Positions 22,695-26,939 of a stretch of DNA of 64,000 nucleotides are shown one piece after another. The DNA is from Yinghuangia soli (GTDB lineage: Bacteria > Actinomycetota > Actinomycetes > Streptomycetales > Streptomycetaceae). The stretch is taken from assembly GCF_021502675.1 (NCBI RefSeq), contig NZ_JAKFHA010000010.1, positions 124,001-188,000 of the forward strand, in the 5' to 3' direction. The notes below the pieces were generated by a model. It worked only from the letters and a program-made list of their open reading frames with translations. It ran no database searches and had not been told where the DNA came from. The stretch's first letter is position 1. The number at the start of each line of letters is the position of its first letter. Both the position numbers and the translations under genes were made by a program.

Positions 22695-23513
22695 TCAGGA
22701 AGCGGCCAGCCAGTCGGCGAACGCCGGTCCGGCGAGCAGGGCGTCCGCACCCGGGAGCAGGGCGCCGCTCTCCAGCAGCTTGCGGTCCGGGGTGTTCGGG
22801 TCGCTGACCTCGACCACCTCCACGGCCTCGCCGCGGTGCGCGAACACGAGCCGGGCGGCTTTGGCGAGGCTCTCCTCGCGCGGTCCGGCGATCTCCGGGA
22901 ACGGCATGCGGGTCGAACCGGCCGCGGGCGCCGGGCCGTTCGCCAGGTCCACAAGGGCCTGCGCGACCGCCGAGCAGGCCACCAGCTGGGTGCGCATGAC
23001 CGGGACGTACGCGGTGCCGCCCTGGCGTCCCCAGCTCACCAGCAGCTCGACGAACTCGTGGAACTGCGCTGCGCGCAGGATCTGGACCGGGAGCGGCCCG
23101 CCGGCCAGGGCCTTCTCGTGCGCGACCTTGGCGAGGTTGTAGCCGCCCTCCGATGCGTCGATGCCGATGATCGAGACCGACACGATGCGCTCGACGCCCG
23201 CCGCGGCGCCGTACTCGTGCAGGTTGCGCGCCGAGGCGGTGAAGAACGCGATGGCGTCCTGCTCGTCCGGCGACGGCGTGCTCGCGGTGTCGATCACGAT
23301 GTCCACTCCGGCAAGGGCGTCGGCGAGGCCCTCGCCGGTCACCACGTCGATCCCGGCGGACCGCGAGATCGCCACGACGTCGTGTCCCTGCTCGCGAAGG
23401 ATGCGGGCCACGTGGCTGCCCAGGCGGCCGGTCGCGCCCGCCACGGCGATCTTCTTCGGCTGGACGGCCTGCGCGGCCTGCGCGGTCTGCGGGTCCTGCG
23501 TGTTCTGCGGCAT
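22695..23513 (-). CDS. NmrA/atypical SDR NAD(P)H-binding protein
   Basis: This 272-residue protein opens with a Gln-rich leader (QDPQTAQAAQAVQ), then KKIAVAGATGRLGSHV, the GxxGxxG dinucleotide loop of atypical SDRs. VERIVSVSIIGIDASEGGYN and LAKVAHEKAL follow, with the active-site YN-x-x-K arrangement typical of the NmrA/YwnB group. Members are NADPH sensors or quinone/sugar reductases, and the substrate is not predictable. ATG at 23513 has GGAG ahead. The next gene upstream on the same strand is the sigma factor fusion, 185 bp away. Confidence 0.8.
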   Translation of the reverse strand: MPQNTQDPQTAQAAQAVQPKKIAVAGATGRLGSHVARILREQGHDVVAISRSAGIDVVTGEGLADALAGVDIVIDTASTPSPDEQDAIAFFTASARNLHEYGAAAGVERIVSVSIIGIDASEGGYNLAKVAHEKALAGGPLPVQILRAAQFHEFVELLVSWGRQGGTAYVPVMRTQLVACSAVAQALVDLANGPAPAAGSTRMPFPEIAGPREESLAKAARLVFAHRGEAVEVVEVSDPNTPDRKLLESGALLPGADALLAGPAFADWLAAS

Positions 23514-23698: not shown

Positions 23699-25723
23699 TC
23701 AGCCCGTGGCGCGCAGTTGCCGCAGGGTGAGCCCGGTCGTGGTCTTGCAGAGGTACTCCGCGCGTTCGTACGACAGCCGCCCGCGGCCGGTGTGCGGGCA
23801 GATGTCGCGTGCGCCCAGCGTGCGCAGGCGGGCCGGACCCGGACGCCGGTCGGAAAGGAACAGCGGCCCGCTGGTGCGCGCGCCGACGAGTTCCGCCAGC
23901 AGCGCGGCCGCCGAGGACCGCCACGCCACCCGGTGCCGGCCCGAAGTGCCGGGCAGCGCGCGGCGGTCGGCCACGTCCAGATCCTCCACGTTGAGGCCGA
24001 GCACGGCCGACACCGCGGCCTCCGACTCCCGCAGGAGCGTCCACAGCGCGCGCTCGCGCAAGGCGGATTCCTGCAGAGCCCGCCGCAGGACGTCGGAACC
24101 GCCTGGGGGTTCCCCGGGACCCGCGGCTCCAGCCGAGGAAGTTCCTTTCCTCCTGGACGAGTTGTCGCGCCGCCGCACGAGCCGGGCGTCCAGGTGCGGG
24201 ACTTCGGCCCAGGCGCCGAACGACCCGACCGCGGCCCGATGCCGGTTCCACGTCGCCGCCGCGGCGCTGCCCCAGGCGGTGCGGAACACGCCCGCCACCT
24301 GGTCCGCGGTCATGGCGGCCACCGGCAGGCCGTCGCCCAGTGCCAGGCGCAGGCGCTGCAGCGTCTGGCCGTACGAGCGGGCGGTGGCAGGCGGGAGTTC
24401 CTCGCGCGCCAGGAACGCCTGCGCTGCCTCCCCGAGCGTGGGTCCCTGGTCCCGGGTGCCCGGCGCTCCGGCCGGCACCGAGGCCGCGCGGCGCAGCAGG
24501 AAGTCCCGTTCCGCCGCGTTCTTCGTCAGCGCGGCGGCCCGTTCGAACTCGCGTCGCGCCTCCTCGCGGCGGCCCGACCGCAGCAAGAGGTCGCCGCGGA
24601 CGCCGGGCAGCAAGTGGTAATCGCGCAGCGCCGGGTCGGCGAGGAGTTCCTCGGTCAGCGCCAGCCCGGCTTCGGGGCCGGCCGCCATGCCCACCGCGAC
24701 CGCCTGGTTCAGCCGGACCACGGGCGACGGCACCAGCCGCACGAGTGCCTCGTACAGTCCGGCGATGCGCGGCCAGTCGGTCTCCTCGGCACTGGACGCC
24801 TGCGCGTGGCAGACCGCGATCGCGGCCTGCAGCACGTATGGCCCGGCCGTCCCGCCCGCGGCCCGGGCCCGGAGCATGGCGGCGAACCCGCGGCGGATCA
24901 GCAGCGGGTCCCAGCGACCGCGGTTCTGCGCGTGCAGCGGTACGGGTTCGCCGCCCGGACCGGTGCGGGCCGCGGCCCGGGAGGCCTGGATCTCCATGAG
25001 GGCGACCAGGCCGTGCACTTCGGCCTCGTCCGGGGCGGCGTCGGCGAGCAGGCGGCCCAGCCGCAGCGCTTCCAGGCACAGCCCGGGACGCATCAGGTCG
25101 TCGCCGGAGGTCGCCGAGTAGCCCTCGTTGAAGATCAGGTAGACGACTTCGAGGACCGACGCCAGGCGGTCGGCAAGCTCGGCGCCGTCCGGGAGTTCGA
25201 AGGCGACCCCGGCGTCGGCCAGGGTCTGCTTCGCGGTCGCGATGCGCCGCGCGACGAGCGGCTCGACGGTCAGGAACGCCCGGGCGATCTCGGCCGCGGT
25301 CAGCCCGCCGAGCAGCCGCAGGGTGAGGGCCACCCGGGACTCGGTGGGCAGCACCGGGTGGCACGAGACGAACATGAGGCGGAGGAGGTCGGCCGGCTCG
25401 TCGGCGGTGTCCGGGGCCCACCCGCCCGCCGGTCCGGCGTCCCGGTCCGCCTCGCGGGCCAGTTCGGCGCCGGTCTCGGCGAGCCGCCGGTCGCGCCGGA
25501 TGCGGTCGACCGCCCGGCGCTTGGCGACCAGCATGAGCCAAGCGCCCGGGTTGTCCGGGACGCCCTGCCCGGGCCACTGCTCCAGGGCCGCGACCAGGGC
25601 GTCCTGGGCCAGTTCCTCGGCGAGGCCGACGTCCCGGACCATGCGGGCGAGTGCCGCGATGATCCGGGCCGACTCCATCCGCCAGATCGCGTCGACGCTG
25701 CGGTGGACGTCCGTCACCGGCAC
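23699..25723 (-). CDS. ECF42-type sigma factor fused to a degenerate tyrosine-recombinase module
   Basis: This is one uninterrupted 674-codon frame. Residues 1-75 are sigma region 2 (AEELAQDALVAALEQWP and AVDRIRRDRR), about 125-178 are region 4, and 180-415 are the long C-terminal domain typical of ECF42 (EVVYLIFNEGYSATSG). ECF42 proteins normally end near residue 415. Here residues 428-507 look like the SAM-like core-binding domain of phage-type integrases (PATARSYGQTLQRLRLALG), and 545-674 resemble the catalytic domain. The latter is damaged: the box I Arg is Ala570, box II reads TLRQLRAT instead of the usual H-x-x-R-H, and the nucleophile Tyr is missing. Recombinase activity is therefore unlikely. 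The start GTG lies 25 bp after the DGPF gene. Confidence 0.85.
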   Translation of the reverse strand: MPVTDVHRSVDAIWRMESARIIAALARMVRDVGLAEELAQDALVAALEQWPGQGVPDNPGAWLMLVAKRRAVDRIRRDRRLAETGAELAREADRDAGPAGGWAPDTADEPADLLRLMFVSCHPVLPTESRVALTLRLLGGLTAAEIARAFLTVEPLVARRIATAKQTLADAGVAFELPDGAELADRLASVLEVVYLIFNEGYSATSGDDLMRPGLCLEALRLGRLLADAAPDEAEVHGLVALMEIQASRAAARTGPGGEPVPLHAQNRGRWDPLLIRRGFAAMLRARAAGGTAGPYVLQAAIAVCHAQASSAEETDWPRIAGLYEALVRLVPSPVVRLNQAVAVGMAAGPEAGLALTEELLADPALRDYHLLPGVRGDLLLRSGRREEARREFERAAALTKNAAERDFLLRRAASVPAGAPGTRDQGPTLGEAAQAFLAREELPPATARSYGQTLQRLRLALGDGLPVAAMTADQVAGVFRTAWGSAAAATWNRHRAAVGSFGAWAEVPHLDARLVRRRDNSSRRKGTSSAGAAGPGEPPGGSDVLRRALQESALRERALWTLLRESEAAVSAVLGLNVEDLDVADRRALPGTSGRHRVAWRSSAAALLAELVGARTSGPLFLSDRRPGPARLRTLGARDICPHTGRGRLSYERAEYLCKTTTGLTLRQLRATG

Positions 25724-25748: not shown

Positions 25749-26072
25749 TCACGGGCCGAACACCTCCTGGATCACGCTCTCGCCGTCCCCGACGATCGTG
25801 CGGAAGCGGCGGCCCAGCTCGACGGCCTCCTCCTTGGAGCGCACCTCGACCAGCGCGAAGCCGACCACGGCCTCCTTGGTCTCGGCGAACGGCCCGTCGG
25901 TGATGGTCAGCTCGCCGCCGGAGGAGACGAGCCGGATGCCTTCCGGGGCCAGGCCGCCGGTCGCCAGCAGCACGCCGGCCGCGGTCAACTCCTCGATGAA
26001 GGCACCCATTTCGGCGAACAGCTTCTCGTCGGGAGCGGTCGCGGAGGCCTTGGACATCATCAGGTAGCGCAT
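25749..26072 (-). CDS. DGPF/YCII-domain protein, partner of the ECF42 sigma factor
   Basis: This is a 107-residue ferredoxin-like-fold protein with the signature TDGPFAETKEAVVGF (58-72). DGPF-domain genes almost always sit beside ECF42 or ECF41-like sigma genes and are thought to be part of that regulatory unit, although their biochemical role is unsettled. ATG at 26072 has GGAG about 6 bases ahead. It is the first gene of the pair, with the sigma factor start 25 bp downstream. Confidence 0.92.
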   Translation of the reverse strand: MRYLMMSKASATAPDEKLFAEMGAFIEELTAAGVLLATGGLAPEGIRLVSSGGELTITDGPFAETKEAVVGFALVEVRSKEEAVELGRRFRTIVGDGESVIQEVFGP

Positions 26073-26243
26073 GGGGTTCTCCGGTTTCTGCGAGGTGCTC
26101 GGCCCCGACGCCGTGCCGGGGTTGCACCGTCACGTCGTCCCGGTCCATGTGACAGGGAATGCAGTCGTTCCCTGTCTTATCAGCGGGACGACGTCTTGGC
26201 GAGTCCGAACACCGCATCCACCGCACACCCGGAGGACACCGCC

Positions 26244-26939
26244 ATGGCGACCACGCAACTTCCCGCCCCCGCCGCCGCTGCTTCCGGCGCCGCCCGCCGG
26301 GCCGCCGCAGGCCCGCGCTTCGGTACACCGGCATCGCTCGCCTGCGCCGTGGTCGCCGGTCCTCTGTGGGTGGCGGTCTCCGCGGCCCAGGCGGCCGCCC
26401 GGGAGGGCTTCGAGCCGACCCGGCACCCGCTCAGCGCGCTGGCCACCGGGTCGCTCGGCTGGGTGCAGATCGCGAACTTCGTGGTGGCGGGCGTCCTCAT
26501 AGCGGCCGGGGCGACCGGTCTGCGCCGCGCCCTGGCCGGTGCGGTCGGCGGAGTATGGGTGCCGCGCCTCGCCCGTACCGCCGGCTTCGGCATGATCGCC
26601 GCCGGGCTCCTGACGATGGACCCGGCGGACGGATTCCCGGTCGGCACTCGGGACGGCCCGCCGGAGACGCTCAGTTGGCATGCGATCGGCCACATGGCGG
26701 CCGGATCCGTCACCTTCGCCGCGCTGATCGCGGCCGGTTTCGTGCTCGGGCGGCACTACGCACGCCAGGGCCGCCGCGGCCTGGCCGCCGCCTCCCGGAC
26801 CGCGGCCACCGCGCTGCTGGTCGGCAACGCCTGGGCGATGAGCGGCGCGTCCGGCGGAGCGCTCGTCCTGGCCGTCGGTGCTTCCTCGATGCTGATCTGG
26901 CTGGCCGCGGCCGCCGCCCGCCTCCGCCGCACCGCCTGA
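26244..26939 (+). CDS. DUF998-family membrane protein
   Basis: This 231-residue protein has about six membrane helices. It starts after a short Ala/Pro leader with ASLACAVVAGPLWVAVSAAQ and carries the family features EGFEPTRHPLSALATGSLGW and the HAIGHMAAGSVTF helix. DUF998 proteins are actinobacterial membrane proteins of unknown function, often found next to ECF sigma genes. It is divergent from the DGPF gene, with GGAGG at 26231-26235 ahead of the ATG, so it is a plausible target of the neighbouring sigma factor. Confidence 0.85.
   Translation: MATTQLPAPAAAASGAARRAAAGPRFGTPASLACAVVAGPLWVAVSAAQAAAREGFEPTRHPLSALATGSLGWVQIANFVVAGVLIAAGATGLRRALAGAVGGVWVPRLARTAGFGMIAAGLLTMDPADGFPVGTRDGPPETLSWHAIGHMAAGSVTFAALIAAGFVLGRHYARQGRRGLAAASRTAATALLVGNAWAMSGASGGALVLAVGASSMLIWLAAAAARLRRTA

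Follow-up and report, generated by a model that had tools for sequence, protein, structure and literature searches.

Sigma factors read promoters through two regions, sigma2 and sigma4. In the ECF42 group, a TGTCGA −35 element is recognized and a YciI/DGPF gene is the typical partner. Among tyrosine recombinases, the Rhodococcus plasmid pFAJ2600 encodes a small enzyme that presumably acts in multimer resolution. Described ECF42 factors include Sven_0747 and others of Streptomyces venezuelae and ECF-10 of Pseudomonas putida (PMC8999054). A second described system that our locus resembles is MrpR (YopR), the master repressor of prophage SPbeta (PMC10516654).

The window analyzed here is a 64,000-nucleotide stretch of DNA from Yinghuangia soli. 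It contains a gene that joins an ECF42 sigma factor to the remains of a tyrosine recombinase, which we call the tail. The gene and its parts are as follows:

23699..25723, minus strand: fusion gene, ECF42 sigma factor plus degenerate tyrosine-recombinase tail (674 codons, GTG start)
24482..25723, minus strand: ECF42 sigma part, residues 1-414, with regions 2 and 4, DUF6596 and a TPR-rich extension
25235..25237, minus strand: Thr163, the sigma4 recognition-helix residue that corresponds to sigmaE R176; 29/29 unfused paralogues have Arg here
24203..24442, minus strand: recombinase core-binding (SAM-like) domain, residues about 428-507, placed by Pfam, AlphaFold and Foldseek
23702..24091, minus strand: catalytic-domain remnant, residues 545-674, with the TLRQLR box at its end, aligned to the intact relative L139

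The single 674-codon frame of the original prediction is an uninterrupted ORF running from 25723 to 23699 on the minus strand. An assembly or frame error was excluded as the source of the fusion because the same single-frame, in-frame fusion recurs in other, independent genomes. An SDR-like gene (family judged by eye) lies 185 bp downstream of the fusion, at 22695-23513 on the minus strand of the window; another SDR-like gene, also recognized by eye, stands near an inverted repeat in L205.

The sigma part was predicted to be a complete ECF42 factor with regions 2 and 4 and a long C-terminal domain, and we recovered these as Pfam and NCBIfam matches within residues 19-402. Sigma70_r2 and DUF6596 (117 bits) exceeded their Pfam cut-offs in the window protein. 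Sigma70_r4_2, TPR and Phage_int_SAM_1 (440-506) fell just or somewhat below theirs when the full-length protein was scanned. Region 4, at 24.5, narrowly missed its cut-off of 25.7, yet its alignment with paralogues was gap-free; TPR_2 was weak (18.8 bits, cut-off 27). Two ECF42 features are present in the protein: sigma2 and sigma4 without sigma3, and a long C-terminal extension with TPR (the weak match above). The ECF42 label itself is putative and has no ECF42 model behind it.

An integrase-like core-binding domain had been predicted for the tail. When the window tail was scanned alone, Phage_int_SAM_1 (PF02899) rose above its cut-off, and the structural model and fold search agreed with that assignment. 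AlphaFold modelled tail residues 11-100 as one block (pLDDT 83-96), and Foldseek matched this core-binding block to integrase core-binding domains with a probability of 0.99, all E values being above 0.05. The core-binding domain expected of a tyrosine recombinase is thus met in the window protein. When seven fused tails were scanned together with three stand-alone relatives, Phage_int_SAM_1 matched 7/10 and the catalytic model PF00589 3/10, the window tail not being among those three. The catalytic remnant was modelled at low confidence (pLDDT mostly below 50). Models of this remnant and of the full protein were built from six alignment rows and carry no weight here; a folded clamp formed by the remnant is not shown, because the remnant modelled so poorly.

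We compared the two halves of the fusion with unfused relatives. In a tail tree of 107 rows, whose bootstraps had not fully settled, 73 fused tails and one split copy formed one group (99/88), with the stand-alone recombinase L139 next to it (97/91). A quick search for a sigma tree of 64 rows placed 34 fused sequences on one side of a branch and 28 plain paralogues on the other (SH-aLRT 99). Both trees separated a basal from a main fused clade. Judged from these trees, the fusion has one origin, in its sigma half and in its tail half. L139, the nearest stand-alone row, has R, K, H-R-H, H and Y all in place and is 53% identical to the window tail profile over 234 columns. Around this intact recombinase (L139:3100-6300, genome G420) we saw by eye a small gene, a ParA-like motif and a reverse-transcriptase-like ORF, and the stretch is perhaps a plasmid or element remnant.

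A phage origin of the tail was rejected. There was no match among 50,697 phage records, and the 16 pattern matches that a profile scan turned up in viral contigs included no relative. Searching the viral contigs for the inverted repeat described below, with a 7-bp spacer only, also gave no match.

A second family of stand-alone recombinase-like proteins (L155-L160 and L162-L164) makes up a nine-member group of its own in the tail tree. Its members lack the active-site residues and end at about the same box as the window tail. In six of the seven loci inspected, the gene is divergent from an MFS-like exporter gene (called by Pfam in L157, otherwise by eye). Between the two genes lie TTTACTGCGG-like repeats, also noted by eye. 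Parallel domestication is possible for this family.

The region upstream of the fusion carries the following features:

25749..26072, minus strand: YciI/DGPF-type gene (PF03795), first of the presumed operon
26133..26137, minus strand: CGACG, 22 bp from where the half-site starts; presumed −10 in the YciI-fusion promoter
26147..26159, minus strand: right half-site TTCCCTGTCACAT, exact, upstream of the YciI gene
26168..26180, plus strand: left half-site TTCCCTGTCTTAT, with 2 mismatches and a gap of 8 bp to the right half-site
26189..26193, plus strand: CGACG, at 21 bp from the left half-site; presumed −10 in the promoter for divergent DUF998
26244..26939, plus strand: divergent DUF998 gene (PF06197), presumed second target

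We examined 56 fused loci, including the frame-broken L128, L130 and L149. A YciI gene lies upstream of the fusion in 55 of them, within the stretch read, and the window locus shares this ECF42 feature; DUF998 is divergent in 39. Upstream of YciI in most fused loci, ATGTGACAGGGAA and TTCCCTGTCACAT face each other. With at most three mismatches allowed, TTCCCTGTCACAT was found in all 55 loci with a YciI gene, and both half-sites were present in 37. The arms are mostly 8-9 bp apart (27/30 matched pairs), compared with 6-7 bp at stand-alone sites.

At up to two mismatches, the half-site was absent from all 29 plain ECF42 loci (120,419 bases from six genomes) and present in 7/7 fused loci from five of the same six genomes. 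We rejected the idea that it is an ordinary ECF42 promoter element because it is missing from all 29 of these plain loci. The exact pattern had 79 matches in 75 whole genomes, occurring once in the window genome and marking the fusion locus in 43 of the 47 fused genomes. Eleven exact matches lie away from fusion loci, and three of these adjoin stand-alone recombinases (two in G420, one in G574). As a control, the pattern read backwards gave 21 matches in the 75 genomes, 18 of which were one per genome in two genera. Single half-sites also stand before a regulator-like gene near 3000-3100 in L202 (genome G043, unfused) and L203 (genome G040, fused), without a CGACG at the right distance. The TTCCCTGTCACAT half-site is probably the DNA site of the tail, although we have no binding data.

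The half-site has a fixed position in the main clade. It is followed by CGACG at 21-22 bp in 45/45 loci, and the canonical TGTCGA −35 is found in none of the 45, so this ECF42 feature is absent at the window locus. With CGACG at that distance and TGTCGA gone, the half-site occupies the canonical −35 place. A chance origin of the layout was rejected, since half-site plus CGACG occurred in 0/9000 shuffled upstream stretches compared with 44/45 real ones. Information content is 1.4-2.0 bits per base across half-site and CGACG and mostly below 1 in the spacer. The sigma half is filed as a derived ECF42 branch because it groups by descent with ECF42 paralogues but lacks the TGTCGA promoter.

The left half-site mirrors this layout on the other strand, with CGACG at 20-22 bp, in 37/45 main loci. 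DUF998 was not shown in seven of the eight main loci without a left half-site, compared with 6/37 of those with one. In L122, DUF998 is present although our test detected no left half-site. Basal fused loci are arranged differently, with half-sites elsewhere (direct repeats in several) and [TG]GTCGA-N16/17-[CG]GA[CT]G kept in 7/10. Among plain loci, TGTCGA-N16/17-CG[AT]C lies upstream in 13/27; no canonical promoter was found in the stretches read for L175 and L177, plain loci close to the fused clade. In addition, an inverted repeat in genome G579 (L198:3004-3037) has CGACG at 21 bp on one side and stands before a DUF1801 gene (PF08818). This promoter-like site suggests a small regulon. A gene similar to DUF1801 by eye lies beside DUF998 in L149.

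The sigma4 recognition helix differs between the same clades. We aligned VAQRIVRAK by eye with the sigmaE helix. Arg stands at the R176 place in 29/29 plain and 14/14 basal fused sequences but in only 4/59 main-clade rows, where eleven residue types occur. The R173 equivalent is retained in 57/59 main rows, and the V175 place has become Ala in 58/59. In sigmaE, R176 and R173 are reported to contact the −35 element (PMC6713349). The recognition helix has an entropy of 1.17 bits in main-clade rows, compared with 0.30 in the basal clade and 0.68 in plain sequences; the sigma2 values are 0.50, 0.26 and 0.65. Compared with the main rows, the basal ones are fewer and more closely related to each other, and this alone reduces their entropy. 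The early branches L150 and L109 still have Arg at the R176 place, as do the nested L111 and L141, and the order of the −35 switch and the R176 change rests on those two early branches. Because both changes define one clade, they represent a few events rather than 45.

Similar inverted repeats are found at stand-alone recombinases. We searched for inverted repeats with 12-bp arms, at least 10 matching positions and a spacer of 6-7 bp, a short spacing like that of loxP- or dif-like core sites. Such a repeat precedes or overlaps the start codon in 18 of 23 stand-alone recombinases, compared with 74/920 shuffled stretches and with 3/23 stretches when the test was applied within or after the gene; none was found at the other five. 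Setting aside L212 and L165, whose GC-rich repeats are of another kind, leaves 16/23. The repeat usually lies 50-140 bp upstream, with outliers at 919 bp (L139), at 394 bp (L215) and just inside the called start (L216). Arm sequence varies between subfamilies, and TGTGACAGGGAA-like arms occur in nine loci; L197 had been fetched on account of its half-site. No CGACG was found at 20-23 bp from the half-site in six stand-alone loci (L139, L197, L206, L209, L215 and L216). No inverted repeat was found at the pFAJ2600 recombinase, for which only 81 bp of upstream DNA lay within the stretch. We read the related inverted repeats at 16 of 23 stand-alone recombinases as indicating that the site tracks the recombinase part and not the sigma part.

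We considered whether the tail binds the half-site merely as an autorepressor or upstream activator while sigma4 reads a changed −35 element (TTCCCT) in the main clade. The basal-clade half-sites away from −35 would fit such a role, and MrpR is a precedent for a tyrosine-recombinase fold that is inactive and works as a repressor (PMC10516654). A new sigma4 specificity is harder to reconcile with an R176 place spread over eleven residue types, where no new residue has settled, although the V175 place did become nearly uniform. It also does not account for the fact that the half-site is conserved over its full 13 bp (1.4-2.0 bits), with GTCACAT, which lies within the spacer, among the conserved bases, nor for the same or similar arms at stand-alone recombinases that have no CGACG at promoter distance. 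We regard this explanation as unlikely but still worth keeping in mind.

Alternatively, the inverted repeat could be the operator of another, unseen regulator, with the tail a passenger. Dimeric regulators encoded elsewhere often bind inverted repeats in divergent promoters. The site, however, goes with the recombinase module both together with sigma and YciI and apart from them, and it is found in 0/29 loci that have sigma and YciI without the module (one of which showed no YciI). An exact match occurs in just two of the 28 genomes without a detected fusion, one each: in G561 at a locus with a partly deleted fusion, and in G043 beside an unrelated gene. An unseen regulator is very improbable on this evidence.

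We surveyed how widely the fusion is distributed, using profile counts in whole-genome samples that overlap. The original prediction called for a search for the same fusion elsewhere, and it turned up in dozens of genomes from two actinobacterial families. A scan of named genomes found five loci, all in-frame fusions (four in Actinoplanes, one in Streptomyces), and one of the two other genomes of the window's genus has it. Among the matches listed, the window's family has the fusion in at least 25 of 200 sampled genomes (23 single-frame, two frame-broken). In family f17, matches reach at least 240 bits in 52/200 genomes; 40 of these were retrieved and have the sigma part in frame, one is split (G600) and 11 were counted by open-frame length alone. 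The fusion is also present in G215, where the match was partial. A class-wide sample contained the fusion in 15/394 genomes, all within these two families, and a phylum-wide sample at E 1e-70 returned 1/296, which was the window itself. Family f18 had no fusion in its eight matching genomes out of 35. Matches were present in 121 plasmid records, and the four retrieved as fusions were confirmed (two Embleya, two Streptomyces). We found no literature report of such a fusion, although a mention in the founding ECF42 paper or the ECF reclassification is not excluded.

Homologs encoded as two separate genes, with no fused copies, had been named as grounds for refutation. Split copies do exist but are few: G600 is frame-split and sits inside the fused clade, and we therefore interpret it as a secondary loss. 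At least four copies are broken, by frame breaks in G131, G182 and G600 and by an internal deletion in G561. These breaks, together with the missing catalytic residues, the cut C-terminus and a tail that evolves faster than sigma in each of 16 hand-picked close pairs (dN/dS 0.21-0.61 compared with 0.11-0.29), are what a decaying relic of an accidental read-through fusion would show. A relic would not be expected to have a tail dN/dS below 1 in 16/16 pairs, strong fused-type matches in the two families at the frequencies given above, or a conserved, fusion-specific half-site, and we consider decay slightly less probable still than an unseen regulator. By the dN/dS measure, the tail stays under purifying selection.

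Alignment with the intact relative confirmed the predicted loss of catalytic residues. Ala570 replaces the box I Arg, and TLRQLRAT stands where H-x-x-R-H is expected. The protein ends at this second box and therefore lacks box III and the Tyr. Among the recombinase residues R, K, H-x-x-R, H/W and Y, the window row keeps just the second Arg (TLRQLR), which makes the window tail a descendant of the family and not an active member. The box I Arg is retained in 5 of the 73 aligned fused tails. The residue table and the tail tree omit two rows, S_L074 and the frame-broken F_L130. Of the seven fused tails that are longer, five have Phe at the Tyr place, one has Leu and one has Tyr. The last is L134 (L134:2694-4883, genome G671), a fused copy that keeps R, K, H, R, H, H and Y (its Lys aligned by eye) and is a possible living intermediate. 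Because this fused copy retains the whole catalytic set, catalysis seems to have been lost after the fusion. That the protein remains a working recombinase under sigma control is the least credible reading, since L134 alone would support it and 66/73 fused tails terminate before box III and the Tyr, with Phe or Leu in six of the other seven.

We favor, with a probability of roughly two in three, the model that a domesticated recombinase took over −35 recognition in the fused ECF42 sigma factor; its binding and transcriptional steps are inferred. The fusion and its single origin, the loss of catalytic residues, the site and its spacing, the missing canonical −35 and the sigma4 change can all be read from the sequences themselves. 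In this model, a single fusion event would have attached a small tyrosine recombinase of the plasmid/Xer type to the C-terminus of an ECF42 sigma factor. This recombinase would then have lost catalysis (box I Arg, Lys, H-x-x-R-H and Tyr) and, in most lineages, its last helices, while retaining binding to its own half-site TTCCCTGTCACAT. C-terminal helices of recombinases pack between protomers in tetramers, and their loss fits binding to a single half-site. In the main clade, the half-site is proposed to have moved into the operon promoters, 21-22 bp before the CGACG −10, replacing TGTCGA. The tail would take over upstream promoter recognition, making sigma4 reading dispensable, and the −35-reading residue of sigma4 would decay. 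The fusion protein may thereby drive its own YciI-fusion operon, with the mirror half-site serving the divergent DUF998 gene. The captured module would have brought its site along. Three points are inferences on our part: binding of the site by the tail, the identity of CGACG as the −10, and use of tail plus sigma2 by the holoenzyme.

The proposal that the module was kept as a DNA-binding domain is supported, short of binding data, by its recurrence in two families, a tail dN/dS below 1 and the fusion-specific half-site. Whether it targets or restrains the sigma factor had been left undecided. Targeting fits better and restraint less well, given the location of the site at −35 and the decay of the sigma4 arginine that corresponds to it. 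The likely DNA target of a recombinase at the former place of a promoter signal suggests that an enzyme of mobile DNA was put to new use in locating promoters. The fuller statement is that −35 recognition moved from sigma4 to a captured recombinase module together with its own recombination site, a half-site acting as a promoter and the inverted repeat as a two-way promoter; the balance tips only slightly in its favor. A sigma lineage in which an unrelated module apparently replaced the −35 reader would show how promoter specificity can be rewired, here with enzyme and target site captured together. Basal fused copies keep the old −35 alongside the new site, which makes the transition traceable and open to testing. 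Such a system could also provide an orthogonal promoter whose upstream specificity comes from a recombinase.

We compared the fusion to the described systems. The pFAJ2600 recombinase (NC_003846) belongs to the same family as the tail, and L139 is 43% identical to it, but it stands alone with no sigma fusion. MrpR resembles the tail in having a tyrosine-recombinase fold without recombinase function and in regulating transcription through a repeated DNA element, binding by the tail being inferred; it differs as a stand-alone phage repressor that has both domains and the Tyr (PMC10516654). Our module is instead part of a sigma factor, is mostly truncated and has its site at the −35 place. The site pattern is the sole support for inferring MrpR-type DNA binding without recombination, and we claim kinship between MrpR and the tail at the superfamily level only. 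Described ECF42 factors share sigma2 and sigma4 and the TPR-rich C-terminal extension with the window protein (PMC8999054). The typical YciI/DGPF partner gene is present upstream here too. The window protein adds a second C-terminal module of about 250 residues, derived from a tyrosine recombinase, and its main clade has a recombinase half-site at the −35 place and has lost the R176 equivalent.
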